A stretch of DNA of 64,000 nt, taken from Arcanobacterium canis. GTDB taxonomy: Bacteria > Actinomycetota > Actinomycetes > Actinomycetales > Actinomycetaceae. The notes under the pieces are model-generated. The model saw only the letters and a list, made by a program, of their open reading frames with translations, was not told the DNA's origin and searched no databases. Below are positions 28,862 to 45,668 of this stretch, piece after piece. A program made the translations under genes and the position numbers. Location of the stretch: NCBI RefSeq assembly GCF_029625435.1, contig NZ_CP121208.1, forward strand, positions 620,001 through 684,000, given 5' to 3'. Numbering within the stretch: position 1 is the first letter of the stretch; each line of letters starts with the position of its first letter.

Positions 28862-28987
28862 GTTTCCCATTCTTCCTTATTTTCACCGGTAATGGGGTTA
28901 ACGGAGCCAGTCGGTTCCTCATTGACACCTCGCTGGTGACGACCCGGTAGCATGTTCGCAGACGTACACAAAGGGGCGGAGAAGATG

Positions 28988-30107
28988 ATGGACGAGGGTT
29001 TTTCAGGGTTCTTAGTAGTTCTCGGAATTGGCATAATCGTGCTCGGGTGGGGGATCGCCCGGCTTATCCGTGATCGTCGGCGTCCTGCCACCGGGCTTTG
29101 GCTACTTTCAGGTGGCTTACTGACATGGATTGGTCTAGCGGCTGTGGTGTCATTGGTTTCACCAGCGCTTGGGCTGATAATGTTCTACGGGCTATTTCTT
29201 GGCGGATTTGTGCTGGCGATGGGATTATCGCTGCTGCTCATTGCCAACGGCTACTACGTGATGAAGAGGCACGGTGTGAACCTTACACGTGCTCTTCCGC
29301 TTGTTGCAGGAGCTGGAACGTTTCTCGCTACGGTTCTCATTGTGTATTTTCATTCGAGCGTTTTTCTCCATCTTCTTGACTCGAACAGTGGGTGGGCGGA
29401 TGTGCGTCTGATCACTGTAGCTTTCTGGTACATCCTCGTCGTCGGCTATATTGGTTTCAACCTTGTGGCCTATACCCTTCAGGCATGGATTCACAGCTTG
29501 TGGCCGCGTGAAGAACGTTACGACGTCGTCGTCGTTCTTGGGGCAGGGCTCATCGGAGATAGAGTAACCGCGTTACTGTCGGGCAGACTTGACCGCGGAA
29601 TAGGAATTGCTCGCGAGGCAGGTGCGCGAGTAATCGTGTGTTCCGGCGGGCAAGGAAGCGATGAGAAAGTATCGGAAGCAGAGGCGATGAGTCGTTATGT
29701 CCGCGAAGTCAGTGGCAATGAATTCACTGTGCTGAAAGAAGAGCGATCCACAACAACCGCTGAAAATCTCCTTTTGACGCGTGCGTTGCTCACGAAAGTT
29801 GGTGCCGATAGAATCACCGACGGCTGACACCGTGACGGCTCCTGATGGGGACCCACAGTATTCCCAGGCCGGTAAGATGCCCCTGCAGGTGGCTGTGGCA
29901 ACCTCGAATTTCCATGCGTTGCGTGCGGGAGCTTTGGCACGTCGTTTAGGGCTGCCGTGGCATGTGTATGGTTCTCCCACTGCCCTCTACTACATTCCAA
30001 CGTCGTTTTTGCGCGAGTTCGCTGCGAATATGATGTTCCACTGGAAACTTCACGCCGTGATGCTCACACTTATGACTTTTGTGATCGGTCTGGCCGGGAT
30101 GATGTGA
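28988..30107 (+). pseudogene. YdcF/DUF218 membrane protein, interrupted by a frameshift
   Basis: The first frame starts at ATG 28985 or 28988 (GGAG at 28978-28981) and ends at a TGA at 29825-29827. It has about six membrane helices and the start of the DUF218 domain: VVVLGAGL, then CSGGQGSDEKVSEAEAM and STTTAENL. The domain continues in the next frame (+1), from about 29810 to 30107, with VAVATSNFHALRAG and a final hydrophobic helix. Joined, the two parts make a normal YdcF protein of about 370 residues. This is either a real mutation or an assembly error. DUF218 proteins are linked to envelope processes; their reaction is unclear. Confidence 0.8.
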
Positions 30108-30138: not shown

Positions 30139-30198
30139 ATATAGCAGTGGTGGGAGCACACCCGGCAAAGCCGAGACGTGCTCCCACCACTGCTATAT
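30139..30198. terminator. Long composite hairpin between ydcF and the surface protein gene
   Basis: Outer arms 30139-30159 and 30178-30198 are exact 21-bp complements (ATATAGCAGTGGTGGGAGCA...), with a smaller CGGC/GCCG stem inside the loop. The stop codons of the two convergent genes flank it closely. Confidence 0.65.
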
Positions 30199-30205
30199 CG
30201 AATCG

Positions 30206-33200
30206 TTATGCTCGCTTCCTTGATACCACCAGTGTGCCGCCGACGGCGAGTGCCATCAGCATGAGCGCTAGTGTTTCAGCAACTCCGCTAGCACCGGTGT
30301 GAGAGAGGCTCGACGGGAAACCGGCGGCCTTGAGCTCGGCACTCGTCGGCGTGCATGGAGCACCCGACGCCGTCTGCCACTTGCCCTGTGGAGCCGACGG
30401 GGCAGCGTTTGCAGCCGTTGTCTGCGCACCGGAAAGAATCTGCGGACCGAAGTCGAAGTGACCCGAGTTCGCATTTCCTGTTCCACCGACGTTGAAGGTC
30501 AAAGTGGTCGAACCGGTGACGCGCTTGCCGTCCTTGGTCGTTGCTGACATTGTCAGGCCGACCTTGTAGATGCCGGGCTTGGAGAACATCCAGTTCGGGT
30601 GAACGTGGGTATTCGCCGGGATCGTGGCTGTGCCGCCTCCACGATTACCGTTACCAGAGAACCACATATCGCCCACAATTTGGCCGAGCTGGGATCCAGA
30701 AGTGTAAACCTCCATCATCCCCGGTCCTGAGAAGGACGTCAGTGAAATTGAGGTCGATCCCTTGATGTTCTCCAGTGCAGTAGGATGCTGAGTGTTCATT
30801 CCCACCCAAGGAATACCGTTAACCTGTGCAGACGAAATCATCCATACTGTGGTGTTCTTCGGGATGCTGCCAATGGACTGCGGAGTGCTTGTCTTTCCTG
30901 CGTTACCAATTCCGAAGGTCAGCGAGGTAGGGGAGACCCACTTAGCTGGGACGGAACGGTCATCCTTGATCATCGGCACGATATTCATGCCAGCTTTTCC
31001 TGCTGCCGGCTGAGCAGCTGCAGCAGTGCGTGCCGACTTGTCGGGGACGAAGATGCAGGCTTCGCGAGTGGAAGCGCCGCTCATCGTCGTAGCGAGGGAT
31101 GCGCCTGAGTGAGAGACACCCGCCTTACCGGTGCCAGAGTTCCCTGACTGACCGTGGTTGTTGGCGGAATGCTGGTTATTGCCAGCAGAATGACCGTGAG
31201 CCTTTCCTGTCTTTTCCGCAGCGGATGCGCTCTTCTTCGCTGGTGCTTTCGTTTCATTCGGGAGCTTGGTTGAATCTCCCACGATGAATGTGTAGACACC
31301 AGTATTCGACTTGACCGCTACTCCACCTGCCTTCGGGGTGGACTCGGCATGGACCGTGAACCGGTAGACACCAGGGGTTTCAAACATCCAGTTCGCATGA
31401 ACGTGAGCTGGGGTTGCTTGATCGATGTAATCGCCGTTGGAAAGCTTGAAATTACCAGACTTCAGGGCTGGCTTTACATCGCCGAATGTGCCACTGAGGA
31501 ACAGGAATGCTCCACCCGGTCCTTCCACTTTATCGAAGACAATCTTCGTTGCCTCAAAGTCGGGGCGAACAGCCCCCGTGTCCCAACCTGGCCACACCAT
31601 TTTGGTGGTGTCTGCGCCATTCGCCGGCAGGAAGAATCCCTGTTTCGGCAATACGGATGGGAAGGTATCAGGAGTGTTGATTTGACGGTCATCCTTGATA
31701 CGCAGTGCAATGCTCTCAGGCTTGTGGAGTTGCGGCTTTCCAGTGGTATCTTCCTTTGCCGTCAGGACGATCTTGCCGTCCTTGGCTGCAACGTTGAAGA
31801 TGTCAAAGTGGCCGTGATCGAACACCGTCACCTTGGTTGCGCGTGGTGCAGCTGGCTTCTTGTGTTCAGACTGCTTTGCGGTGTCGTTCTTCGACGAGGA
31901 ATCATCGGTTGCCTTCGGTTGAGGAGTCTTATCGCCGATGAGCCATGTGTAGGTTGCTTCGTTGGAGACAACACGAACGGAATCAGCCTTGGGCAGACCC
32001 ATCAAAGAACCCGCTGCGAGCGCACTCTTTGCGTCAGCTGCTTGAACAGTCATAGTGTAGACACCAGGAGCAGTGAACAGCCAAGAGGTGTGAACGTGCA
32101 TCGGGGTCTTCTGTAAGATCGAATCGCCTGAATTCAGCTCCATATTGCCATCGACAAGTGGCGAGATAATCCTGCCGCTTGGGGATGGATGGAACATGAA
32201 TACCTTGCCATCCTTCGGTGTGGTCACCTTTGTGAAATTAATCGAGATTGGACCAAAGTGTGGCCGGACAAGGGAAGTATCCCAGCCTGCAAATGGGGCA
32301 TAAGTTTGATCTTCGCCCCCACTGGACAAAAGGTATCCGTGTGGCGCTGTTTTCTTGGCCAGTCCGGCCGGAATATCCTGCTTCGACTTGTCGCTCACAC
32401 GTAAGAAGAAGCTCTCTGGTGCGCGCAGCACTGGCTTTTCGCCGGTTGTGTCATCCTTGGCGTTAAGTACGAGCTTCTTGCCTTCTGCAACAACGTTGAA
32501 GAGGTCGATGTGGCCACTTGAAAGCTCAAGCTTCTTTGCGGAAGGCGTTGACTTCTGGTTGCCTTCGTCTGCGGTTGTCTTACCTGGGACAAGCTCTGTC
32601 CACGGAATGCTTTTCTTGGGATTTTCTGGCTGTGGCTTCACTGTATCGTCCGGCGCGGAGAGGTCACCTGCGGCGTCCTTGTTTGGATCGGCAGAATTAG
32701 GCTTAACAATCCAGTTGTAAGTCTTGACAGCTGATTCGACTTTGCCATTCTTGCCATCAGCGACGACCTTTACCTTCATGACATATTTGCCTGGCTTGGT
32801 AAAGACCCAATGAAGATGCTTATGGTACGAAGCCGGTACGGAGTATGTAGAGCCAGCTTCGACGTAGTACTTCTTATTGTCGAGGAATGGGGCGGGGATA
32901 GCTTTGAGAGCTACTGAATCGAAGCCAGAGTTATCAACGAAAGCAAGCTTTCCTGGTCCAGTGAGAGATTCAAAGACAACTTTCGCATTCTTTAAACCCT
33001 TCTTGTCGTATTGATTCGATGCAAAGCCTGGATATAGCCCATTTCGTGCTTTCACGGACGGGGAAATATAACCAGCAGTCTCTCCCCCGGGAAGGTTGTA
33101 TTCAAGTCCGGTTTCATAGGTGTCAGCGGTCATAATGAAACGAGCTGACTCTGGCGTCCGGATGACGCTTTGCCCAGTAATATCCTCCTTTGTTAAAAGG

Positions 33201-34240
33201 TCGATATGCTGAGAGTCGGAGGCGTAGACGTAGAAAGAATCAAGATGTCCACCGGAAAGGTCAACGGAGTTAGTCAGTGGCTCCAACGACTCTTGTTCAG
33301 TTGTATTTGATTCAGGCGATTCTTGGTCGGTGACATGAGCGTCATCGGGATCCTCGTCCTCATCTTTATCGTTAGCCGAGGAGTTATCCTCATCCTTGTC
33401 GGACTCACCTGGGGCTTTGTCCTCGGAATTCTTATCCTCGTCGTCGTTAGTCGTCTTGTCAGGATCCGTTACCGCCGTCTTACCGCCGAGATCTTCAGCT
33501 CGAACGCCATTGGGGCGGTCTTTTTTGGTGGGATCAGTACCAAGGCTCTTGACCTCAGATGGCTGGGACTTATCCGCCTCGGACTTCGTCACCTCGTAGG
33601 TTTGGGTGACGGGAGTGCCCTTGATGACCTTGCCATCTTTGACTCCCAGCGGAGTTGCAGTGAACGTGTACTTTCCCGCGTGCTGGAAGTACCACGAACC
33701 GTGGGTGTGACCGAAGACGGGAAGGTAGGAACCGTCTTTCACGAAGTACTGGTTACCCGCCAGCACGGGCATGATCTTTGTGTCATCGGTGGGATGGTTC
33801 CCATAAATCGAAAATTGGCCCGGGCCCTTCACGTCGCTGAAGAGGACTCCGTTTGCTGTGAACCCGTTAGATTCAGGCTTTCCGCTCCACCCTGGTGAAA
33901 AATATTCACTTTGGCTGGTTGTGTAGTAGGCCTTGTGCCCGGTCTCAGCGAAAGCCGCGAAGTTCGGTTTATCCTCTTCGTCCAGGCTAGATCCAGGATC
34001 ATCGATATAGGCGGTTTTATCGATCACAAAGGTGGCGTTCCCATTGTATATCTGATCTCGTAGGCCGTTCTTCACCTGGATCGTGGGGACACCGGAGACG
34101 GTTGTGATTGAAAAACCGTCGGTATGGTCGCGGGAAAAGACGTTTTCCCCCGAGGCGCTTGCTGTCACAGGAGTGAGTGACATGAGCGCAAAGCTAGCTA
34201 CCGCCGCAAGACTTGCGGCTTTGAGCGCTTTAATTTTCAT
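30206..34240 (-). CDS. Giant wall-anchored protein with five HxH repeats (choice-of-anchor M type), likely metal-linked
   Basis: Encodes 1344 residues with a signal peptide ending in ASA. Five repeats follow the actinobacterial surface-anchored domain pattern: a GH(I/F/L)D(L/S/I)F opening and a closing HxHxxWxFxxPGxY. The closing HxH motifs are near residues 180 (GHTHGSWYF), 473 (HKHLHWVF), 715 (HVHTSWLF), 948 (HVHANWMF) and 1212 (HVHPNWMF). Between repeats 1 and 2 is a very acidic linker; between 4 and 5 a His-rich stretch (AHGHSAGNNQHSANNHG). IPWTEL occurs at about 545. The C-terminus is LSHTG at 1312, a hydrophobic helix and RKRA, a sortase signal variant. In relatives these domains accompany zinc/manganese ABC transporters. 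The promoter holds a Zur-like box. Metal capture at the surface is inferred. Confidence 0.82.
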   Translation of the reverse strand: MKIKALKAASLAAVASFALMSLTPVTASASGENVFSRDHTDGFSITTVSGVPTIQVKNGLRDQIYNGNATFVIDKTAYIDDPGSSLDEEDKPNFAAFAETGHKAYYTTSQSEYFSPGWSGKPESNGFTANGVLFSDVKGPGQFSIYGNHPTDDTKIMPVLAGNQYFVKDGSYLPVFGHTHGSWYFQHAGKYTFTATPLGVKDGKVIKGTPVTQTYEVTKSEADKSQPSEVKSLGTDPTKKDRPNGVRAEDLGGKTAVTDPDKTTNDDEDKNSEDKAPGESDKDEDNSSANDKDEDEDPDDAHVTDQESPESNTTEQESLEPLTNSVDLSGGHLDSFYVYASDSQHIDLLTKEDITGQSVIRTPESARFIMTADTYETGLEYNLPGGETAGYISPSVKARNGLYPGFASNQYDKKGLKNAKVVFESLTGPGKLAFVDNSGFDSVALKAIPAPFLDNKKYYVEAGSTYSVPASYHKHLHWVFTKPGKYVMKVKVVADGKNGKVESAVKTYNWIVKPNSADPNKDAAGDLSAPDDTVKPQPENPKKSIPWTELVPGKTTADEGNQKSTPSAKKLELSSGHIDLFNVVAEGKKLVLNAKDDTTGEKPVLRAPESFFLRVSDKSKQDIPAGLAKKTAPHGYLLSSGGEDQTYAPFAGWDTSLVRPHFGPISINFTKVTTPKDGKVFMFHPSPSGRIISPLVDGNMELNSGDSILQKTPMHVHTSWLFTAPGVYTMTVQAADAKSALAAGSLMGLPKADSVRVVSNEATYTWLIGDKTPQPKATDDSSSKNDTAKQSEHKKPAAPRATKVTVFDHGHFDIFNVAAKDGKIVLTAKEDTTGKPQLHKPESIALRIKDDRQINTPDTFPSVLPKQGFFLPANGADTTKMVWPGWDTGAVRPDFEATKIVFDKVEGPGGAFLFLSGTFGDVKPALKSGNFKLSNGDYIDQATPAHVHANWMFETPGVYRFTVHAESTPKAGGVAVKSNTGVYTFIVGDSTKLPNETKAPAKKSASAAEKTGKAHGHSAGNNQHSANNHGQSGNSGTGKAGVSHSGASLATTMSGASTREACIFVPDKSARTAAAAQPAAGKAGMNIVPMIKDDRSVPAKWVSPTSLTFGIGNAGKTSTPQSIGSIPKNTTVWMISSAQVNGIPWVGMNTQHPTALENIKGSTSISLTSFSGPGMMEVYTSGSQLGQIVGDMWFSGNGNRGGGTATIPANTHVHPNWMFSKPGIYKVGLTMSATTKDGKRVTGSTTLTFNVGGTGNANSGHFDFGPQILSGAQTTAANAAPSAPQGKWQTASGAPCTPTSAELKAAGFPSSLSHTGASGVAETLALMLMALAVGGTLVVSRKRA

Positions 34241-34309
34241 TTGTATTTCTTTCTAATCTGATGCTATGAGCACGAGGAATCGATAGAAATTCCTAGTGAG
34301 ATGATAGCA

Positions 34310-34328
34310 AAAATGATTACCATTCTCA
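34310..34328 (-). promoter_or_regulatory. Zur-like operator in the surface protein promoter
   Basis: On the minus strand the sequence TGAGAATGGTAATCATTTT resembles actinobacterial Zur boxes of the form TGAnAATnATTnTCA. It lies 70-88 bases before the start codon and directly upstream of a possible -10 TATCAT (34304-34299), where a bound repressor would block RNA polymerase. Confidence 0.5.
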
Positions 34329-34403
34329 TATGGGTGGGGTGTGACCTTTTTACTTCTGAAATGGGGTAGTGGCCATTCGCGCAAACGCTGGTATCGTGGA
34401 GGT

Positions 34404-44930: not shown

Positions 44931-45668
44931 ATGACTGAATTCTCTCGCAAAGACGGGCGCGCCACCGATGAACTGCGCCCAGTGACTATTACCCGCAACT
45001 ATCTTGAAGCTGGGGAAGGCTCAGTTCTGGTGGAGTTTGGCCGCACGAAAGTTTTGTGCGTGGCCTCTTTTACTGTAGGAGTGCCGCGCTGGCGTAAAGA
45101 CTCGGGTCTTGGCTGGGTGACCGGCGAATATGCGATGTTGCCGCGTGCAACTGATACTCGCAACCAGCGCGAGTCAGTCAAGGGCAAAGTTGGCGGACGT
45201 ACCCAAGAAATCTCTCGACTCATTGGCCGTTCACTTCGAGCAGTTGTTGATTTTGAAGCACTGGGTGAAAACACCATTGTCTTAGATTGTGACGTGCTCC
45301 AAGCGGACGGTGGCACCCGTACAGCCTCGATTACCGGCGCTTACGTCGCTCTGGCCGACGCCGTTGCCTGGGGGATCGCCAATGGGCATATCCATCCGCG
45401 AGCAGGTAAGCCAGTGCTGCGCGATTCAATTTCTGCAATTTCGGTTGGAATAATTGATGATCATGCGTGCCTGGATTTGCCCTACGAGGAAGACTCACGT
45501 GCGCAAACCGATATGAATGTGGTGATGACCGGTAGCGGAAAATTCATTGAGATTCAGGGTACCGCTGAAGGCGAGCCCTTCTCGCGTACTGAACTCGGTC
45601 AACTGCTTGATCTGGCCGAAAAGGGCAACCGCGAACTGGCACAACTTCAGAAATCGGTATGCGAATGA
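44931..45668 (+). CDS. rph: Ribonuclease PH
   Basis: Encodes 245 residues. [18 protein letters not shown] is the family N-terminus, and [32 protein letters not shown]-type residues ([14 protein letters not shown]) line the phosphate and RNA channel. [18 protein letters not shown] is the highly conserved catalytic block. RNase PH trims the 3' ends of tRNA precursors with phosphate. It overlaps rdgB by four bases, a common pairing. Confidence 0.96.

Follow-up and report, generated by a model that had tools for sequence, protein, structure and literature searches.

Large surface proteins with paired HxD and HxH motifs are known from Corynebacterium diphtheriae. Two of the genes, cmrA and cmrA2, are under the control of zinc and Zur, and their products are predicted to be sortase-anchored (PMC6711530). 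For ZnuE, ZnuF and ZnuG of the same species, thermal shifts with zinc were reported; AlphaFold models of ZnuE and ZnuG bring the HxD/HxH residues close together, and the phenotypes of both depend on the His residues (PMC12445094). Here, we analysed a stretch of 64,000 nucleotides from Arcanobacterium canis (contig NZ_CP121208.1, positions 620,001–684,000, forward strand), hereafter called the window. On its minus strand, positions 30206–34240 form a single open reading frame (ORF) of 1344 aa, which, judged from its sequence, is a large further member of the already described family resembling CmrA, CmrA2 and ZnuE/F/G. We consider it likely that the product is a CmrA/ZnuG-like, sortase-anchored zinc-capture protein that is repressed by Zur and serves a transporter encoded at 1468.6–1472.7 kb of the genome. 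The computational evidence comprises the family, the complete motif set, the operator class with its regulon, the transporter locus and the co-occurrence of both components.

Compared to the described systems, the protein shares with CmrA and CmrA2 a control by Zur that is predicted here, the large size, a predicted sortase anchor, the repeated HxD/HxH domains and a gene location away from the znu cluster (PMC6711530, PMC12445094). Two motif pairs are found in CmrA and three in CmrA2 (PMC12445094), whereas the 1344-aa protein has five, the last of them permuted; the proteins are likened here without an assignment of orthology. ZnuG, ZnuF and ZnuE are similar in the HxD/HxH domain, in the zinc regulation predicted here and in their location at the wall or membrane, but have only one or two domains and are encoded inside the transporter gene cluster (PMC12445094). 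TIGR03773 proteins of related genera also show a canonical domain followed by a terminal module at the C-terminus, most often between two cysteines. However, many of these are only 550–720 aa long with two HxH motifs and are encoded adjacent to the transporter, while the novel member has five domains and is encoded 0.8 Mb away from it. Streptococcal polyhistidine triad (Pht) proteins, surface zinc scavengers proposed to feed a zinc ABC transporter (PMC12445094), resemble it in its proposed function, with no homology shown, and differ in their HxxHxH motif and in having no sortase requirement.

A search with NCBIfam profiles placed the surface protein far above the curated cut-offs of TIGR03773 (466 bits, cut-off 190.3), NF038134 (choice-of-anchor M; 451.7 bits, cut-off 55) and TIGR03769 (176 bits, cut-off 30.9), the latter two each matching in five stretches. 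The original prediction, which had been made from the DNA letters, named TIGR03769/choice-of-anchor M as the family, and the profile search bears this out. TIGR03773 carries the label transporter-associated surface protein. The N-terminus resembles a signal peptide and the C-terminus (30206–30310, minus strand) has the features of a sortase substrate, namely an LPxTG-like motif (LSHTG), a hydrophobic stretch and a basic tail (RKRA). Four sortases are encoded in the genome.

The five predicted HxHxxWxF-type motifs are exact (HTHGSWYF 178, HKHLHWVF 473, HVHTSWLF 715, HVHANWMF 946 and HVHPNWMF 1212). In addition, every repeat contains an HxD partner that had been overlooked. On the minus strand, repeat 1 (33566–34153) has HTD 39, repeat 2 (32690–33274) HLD 332, repeat 3 (31916–32539) HID 577 and repeat 4 (31235–31843) HFD 811, whereas the repeat 5 module (30326–31078), which includes the cysteine pair Cys1062 and Cys1296, has HFD 1261. 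The spacing from HxD to HxH in repeats 1–4 is 139, 141, 138 and 135 aa; in known proteins the pair brackets about 150 aa. In an alignment of 16 domains from the window protein and the loci L021–L024 (17–43% identical to repeat 4), HxH shows no variation in its two His residues, and conservation of the His and Asp in HxD is 90% or higher.

Alignments of the window protein and the same loci were used for structure prediction with AlphaFold2. The model of repeat 4 is confident and beta-rich (pLDDT 92.6, pTM 0.89) and represents a beta-sandwich, while that of repeat 5 is of fair quality (pLDDT 81.2, pTM 0.72). A search of solved structures by sequence yielded no relative (best E 0.064). In the fold comparison of the models, no Foldseek match had an E value below 0.001 and every VIA-align Z was below 8, so that the models appear to share only a generic beta-sandwich arrangement with known folds.

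The linker between repeats 4 and 5 had been described as rich in His. With 5 His in its densest 40 aa, its density was matched by 647 of 2000 shuffles of the protein, and the linker of relatives contains 0–2 His; this trait is thus neither unusual nor conserved. A His-rich linker acting as a metal sponge was rejected, the His density being within chance. More distinctive is the linker between repeats 1 and 2 (33275–33565, aa 226–322), which is strongly acidic with 32 Asp and Glu residues in 97 aa.

Repeat 5 lacks the HxD motif at its start. Instead, the pair is reversed and HxD follows HxH, 49 aa apart. A 655-aa paralogue from the same genome has the order HxH-HxD-body: its block from HxH to HFD (62% identical) lies before the body (44% identical), while in the window protein the block comes after the body. 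The arrangement of these blocks shows repeat 5 to be a real circular permutation. Among the surface proteins read, the terminal module has the order HxD-body-HxH in 6, body-HxH-HxD in 14 and HxH-HxD-body in 11 cases. Every terminal module read contains exactly one HxD and one HxH, mostly flanked by an upstream and a downstream cysteine. The tree needs four changes of order in all, the minimum possible being two; the sisters L055 and L077 differ in order (100/96 support), and some deep branches are weakly supported. As the four residues are retained as a set through every change of order, we argue that HxD and HxH form one site. This evolutionary argument, with a free order and a fixed set, bears on a question that direct mutagenesis in C. 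diphtheriae had not settled.

In the insert of the substrate-binding protein of the transporter, HxH also stands ahead of HxD in nearly all copies read. The study on C. diphtheriae noted the reversed order for ZnuA, without reading it as a permutation (PMC12445094). In the open-licence literature, we found no report naming circular permutation in the TIGR03773/choice-of-anchor M family, and the permuted module is the part of the protein to which this applies. As a rather speculative idea, the cysteine-flanked, membrane-proximal module may serve specifically for docking or hand-over, as the counterpart of the likewise permuted insert in the substrate-binding protein, while the remaining domains would make up a relay of sites across the wall.

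The original prediction also noted a Zur-like palindrome in the promoter. On the evidence of motif discovery and matrix rank, the palindrome at 34312–34332 (AATGATTACCATTCTCATATG, plus strand) can be assigned as a Zur-type operator. It is located 72–92 bp upstream of the start codon of the surface protein and overlaps the -35/spacer part of a promoter-like match, the sole one there (34301–34329, minus strand; ATGAGA-17-TATCAT, with TG ahead of the second hexamer), a consensus match that alone is not above shuffle expectation. A palindrome search at two mismatches in the window alone did not exceed chance, and the comparison with relatives was decisive. Motif discovery without a preset consensus in 21 promoters of family operons yielded AATGATAAcCATTaTCAaTaA. 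A scoring matrix was built from 18 sites of other genomes, with all sites of the own genome excluded. With this matrix the operator ranked first, at 18.0 bits, among 266,732 positions; these represent stretches picked around candidate loci, and the ranking is not genome-wide. Listed Zur sites of Corynebacterium glutamicum (PMC2823685) score 11.6 to 25.6 bits, two of them 25.6, while a DtxR-type box ahead of another transporter scores -8.3.

The operator matches 16 of 21 positions of our own Fur-class 21-mer consensus. At least 15 of 21 positions were matched in 17 of 23 family promoters, compared to 9 of 183 control upstream regions and 1.2% of dinucleotide shuffles. In the scan of family promoters, no operator was found ahead of the high-GC relatives L092 and L093 and a weak one ahead of L081. 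A pattern search for the 13-mer AATGRTWAYCATT gave the surface-protein operator as the only exact match in the genome; with one mismatch, two further places were found, one of them upstream of a second surface-protein cluster.

Further Zur-type sites precede this second cluster (16.7 bits), an adhA-like gene for a Zn-type alcohol dehydrogenase (15.6 bits), znuACB-zur (15.4 bits) and the transporter (14.7 bits). The site at L042:5182–5202 lies 165 bp upstream of the alcohol dehydrogenase gene (L042:5367–6404), which is beside the transporter operon and was named from its sequence alone. In corynebacteria, a Zur-type site is likewise found before adhA. At L044:6795–6841, upstream of a different Mn/Zn-type ABC operon, lies a strong inverted repeat of the DtxR type (ttagggtagcctaac / gttaggctaccctaa).

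The protein had further been described as lacking its usual transporter. This holds for the window, in which a Pfam scan of 40 ORFs revealed PTS, MFS and Asp/Ala-exchanger-type genes but no Zn/Mn ABC transporter. It does not hold for the genome: an anchored-repeat Zn ABC operon was found at 1468.6–1472.7 kb, at a distance of 0.8 Mb from the surface-protein gene. Its substrate-binding protein matches TIGR03772 (549 bits, cut-off 350) and carries an inserted HxH domain. The other genes of the operon specify an ATPase, a permease that scores 392 bits with TIGR03770 (cut-off 297), and a ZnuE-like choice-of-anchor M protein of 309 aa that is membrane-anchored. The second family pair (655 and 1069 aa) at about 1741.0–1746.2 kb (L043:3993–9226, where L043 is genome 1737000–1750500) is also far from the transporter and has its Zur-type box at L043:9273. 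A surface protein of zinc starvation can hence be encoded 0.8 Mb away from its transporter, yet share the type of operator.

Of 61 genomes of the family, 32 have matches over the cut-off to both TIGR03773 and TIGR03770, and the remaining 29 have such a match to neither. The chance of such an identical set is 1/C(61,32) = 5e-18, uncorrected for ancestry. Genera that include genomes with and genomes without the two show the same pattern (for example G003/G038, G008/G041, G018/G048 and G026/G055). The distance between the two genes is about 6 kb or less in 24 of the 32 genomes. They are apart in G017, G049 and each of the three genomes from this genus; in G019, G034 and G047, the two are on separate contigs. 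This perfect co-occurrence and the transporter's own Zur-type box support the earlier suggestion of a partner transporter encoded elsewhere. As protein and transporter are inseparable across the 61 genomes, the question "helper or sponge" becomes testable.

For the mechanism, we propose that Zur would occupy 34312–34332 and block the promoter when zinc is plentiful. Zinc shortage would lift the repression of the gene and, at the same time, that of the anchored-repeat Znu transporter operon, the second surface-protein pair and znuACB-zur. The protein would then be secreted and fixed to the wall by sortase. Three His (one from HxD, two from HxH) and the Asp of HxD may hold one metal in each of the five beta-sandwich domains, which would provide five sites through the wall; zinc as the metal and the geometry of the site are suggested by analogy with the relatives. 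From there, we infer, zinc would move on to the ZnuE-like protein anchored in the membrane and to the substrate-binding protein, both of which carry the same domain.

Several observations weigh against a zinc-capture protein that serves the transporter. In transporter-positive C. diphtheriae, deletion of znuF or znuG had no effect on growth, and plasmid-expressed ZnuF/ZnuG slowed growth when the transporter was absent (PMC12445094), so that help to import was not shown there. His-to-Ala mutants kept zinc binding in thermal-shift assays (PMC12445094). The genome encodes two Fur-family proteins, one together with znuACB (L045:6585–7055) and the second at 45228–45500, and the znu-linked regulator remains below every NCBIfam cut-off, its best matches under the cut-offs being the Fur and PerR models. 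The growth defect was explained by sequestration (PMC12445094). This would fit a Zur-regulated protein whose wall-bound zinc is not relayed but retained, be it as a reserve, as a buffer or to withhold it from neighbours. That protein and transporter occur only together fits a relay and such a store alike, because a wall sponge would be harmful without a transporter and harmless only beside one. On the other hand, the substrate-binding and membrane proteins of the transporter operon contain this domain too, suggesting a shared path, and a pure sponge made during starvation would cost much. We regard storage as possible, but the zinc-capture protein serving the transporter as the better account.

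The long repeat stalk, the sortase signal and models that generically resemble the sandwiches of Ig-like adhesins and pilins would also be expected of a protein that primarily binds a host ligand, with a structural metal, and is produced when zinc limitation signals the host. Such an adhesin is unlikely: the low fold scores point to a common arrangement only, and the HxD/HxH set is among the most conserved residues. The regulator itself could be questioned as well, as the 21-mer also resembles the classical Fur box, a second Fur-family gene is present and the znu-linked regulator has its best score, below the cut-offs, with Fur models. That the operator belongs to another regulator of this family (Fur- or PerR-like), or that the ligand is a metal other than zinc, seems very unlikely. 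The motif matches the Zur sites of C. glutamicum and precedes znuACB-zur and the adhA-like gene, and a DtxR-type box lies before another Mn/Zn-type transporter, as expected where iron and manganese control is of the DtxR type.

Directly downstream of the surface-protein gene, a perfect 20-bp inverted repeat (TATAGCAGTGGTGGGAGCAC ... GTGCTCCCACCACTGCTATA) was found at window positions 30140–30197, with no obvious T run. The YdcF-like (DUF218) gene next to it (28952–30107) is apparently split. Its ORF ends at 29827, while another frame (29781–30107) stays open and could plausibly encode the rest of the C-terminus. A frameshift or a sequencing error may be the cause.

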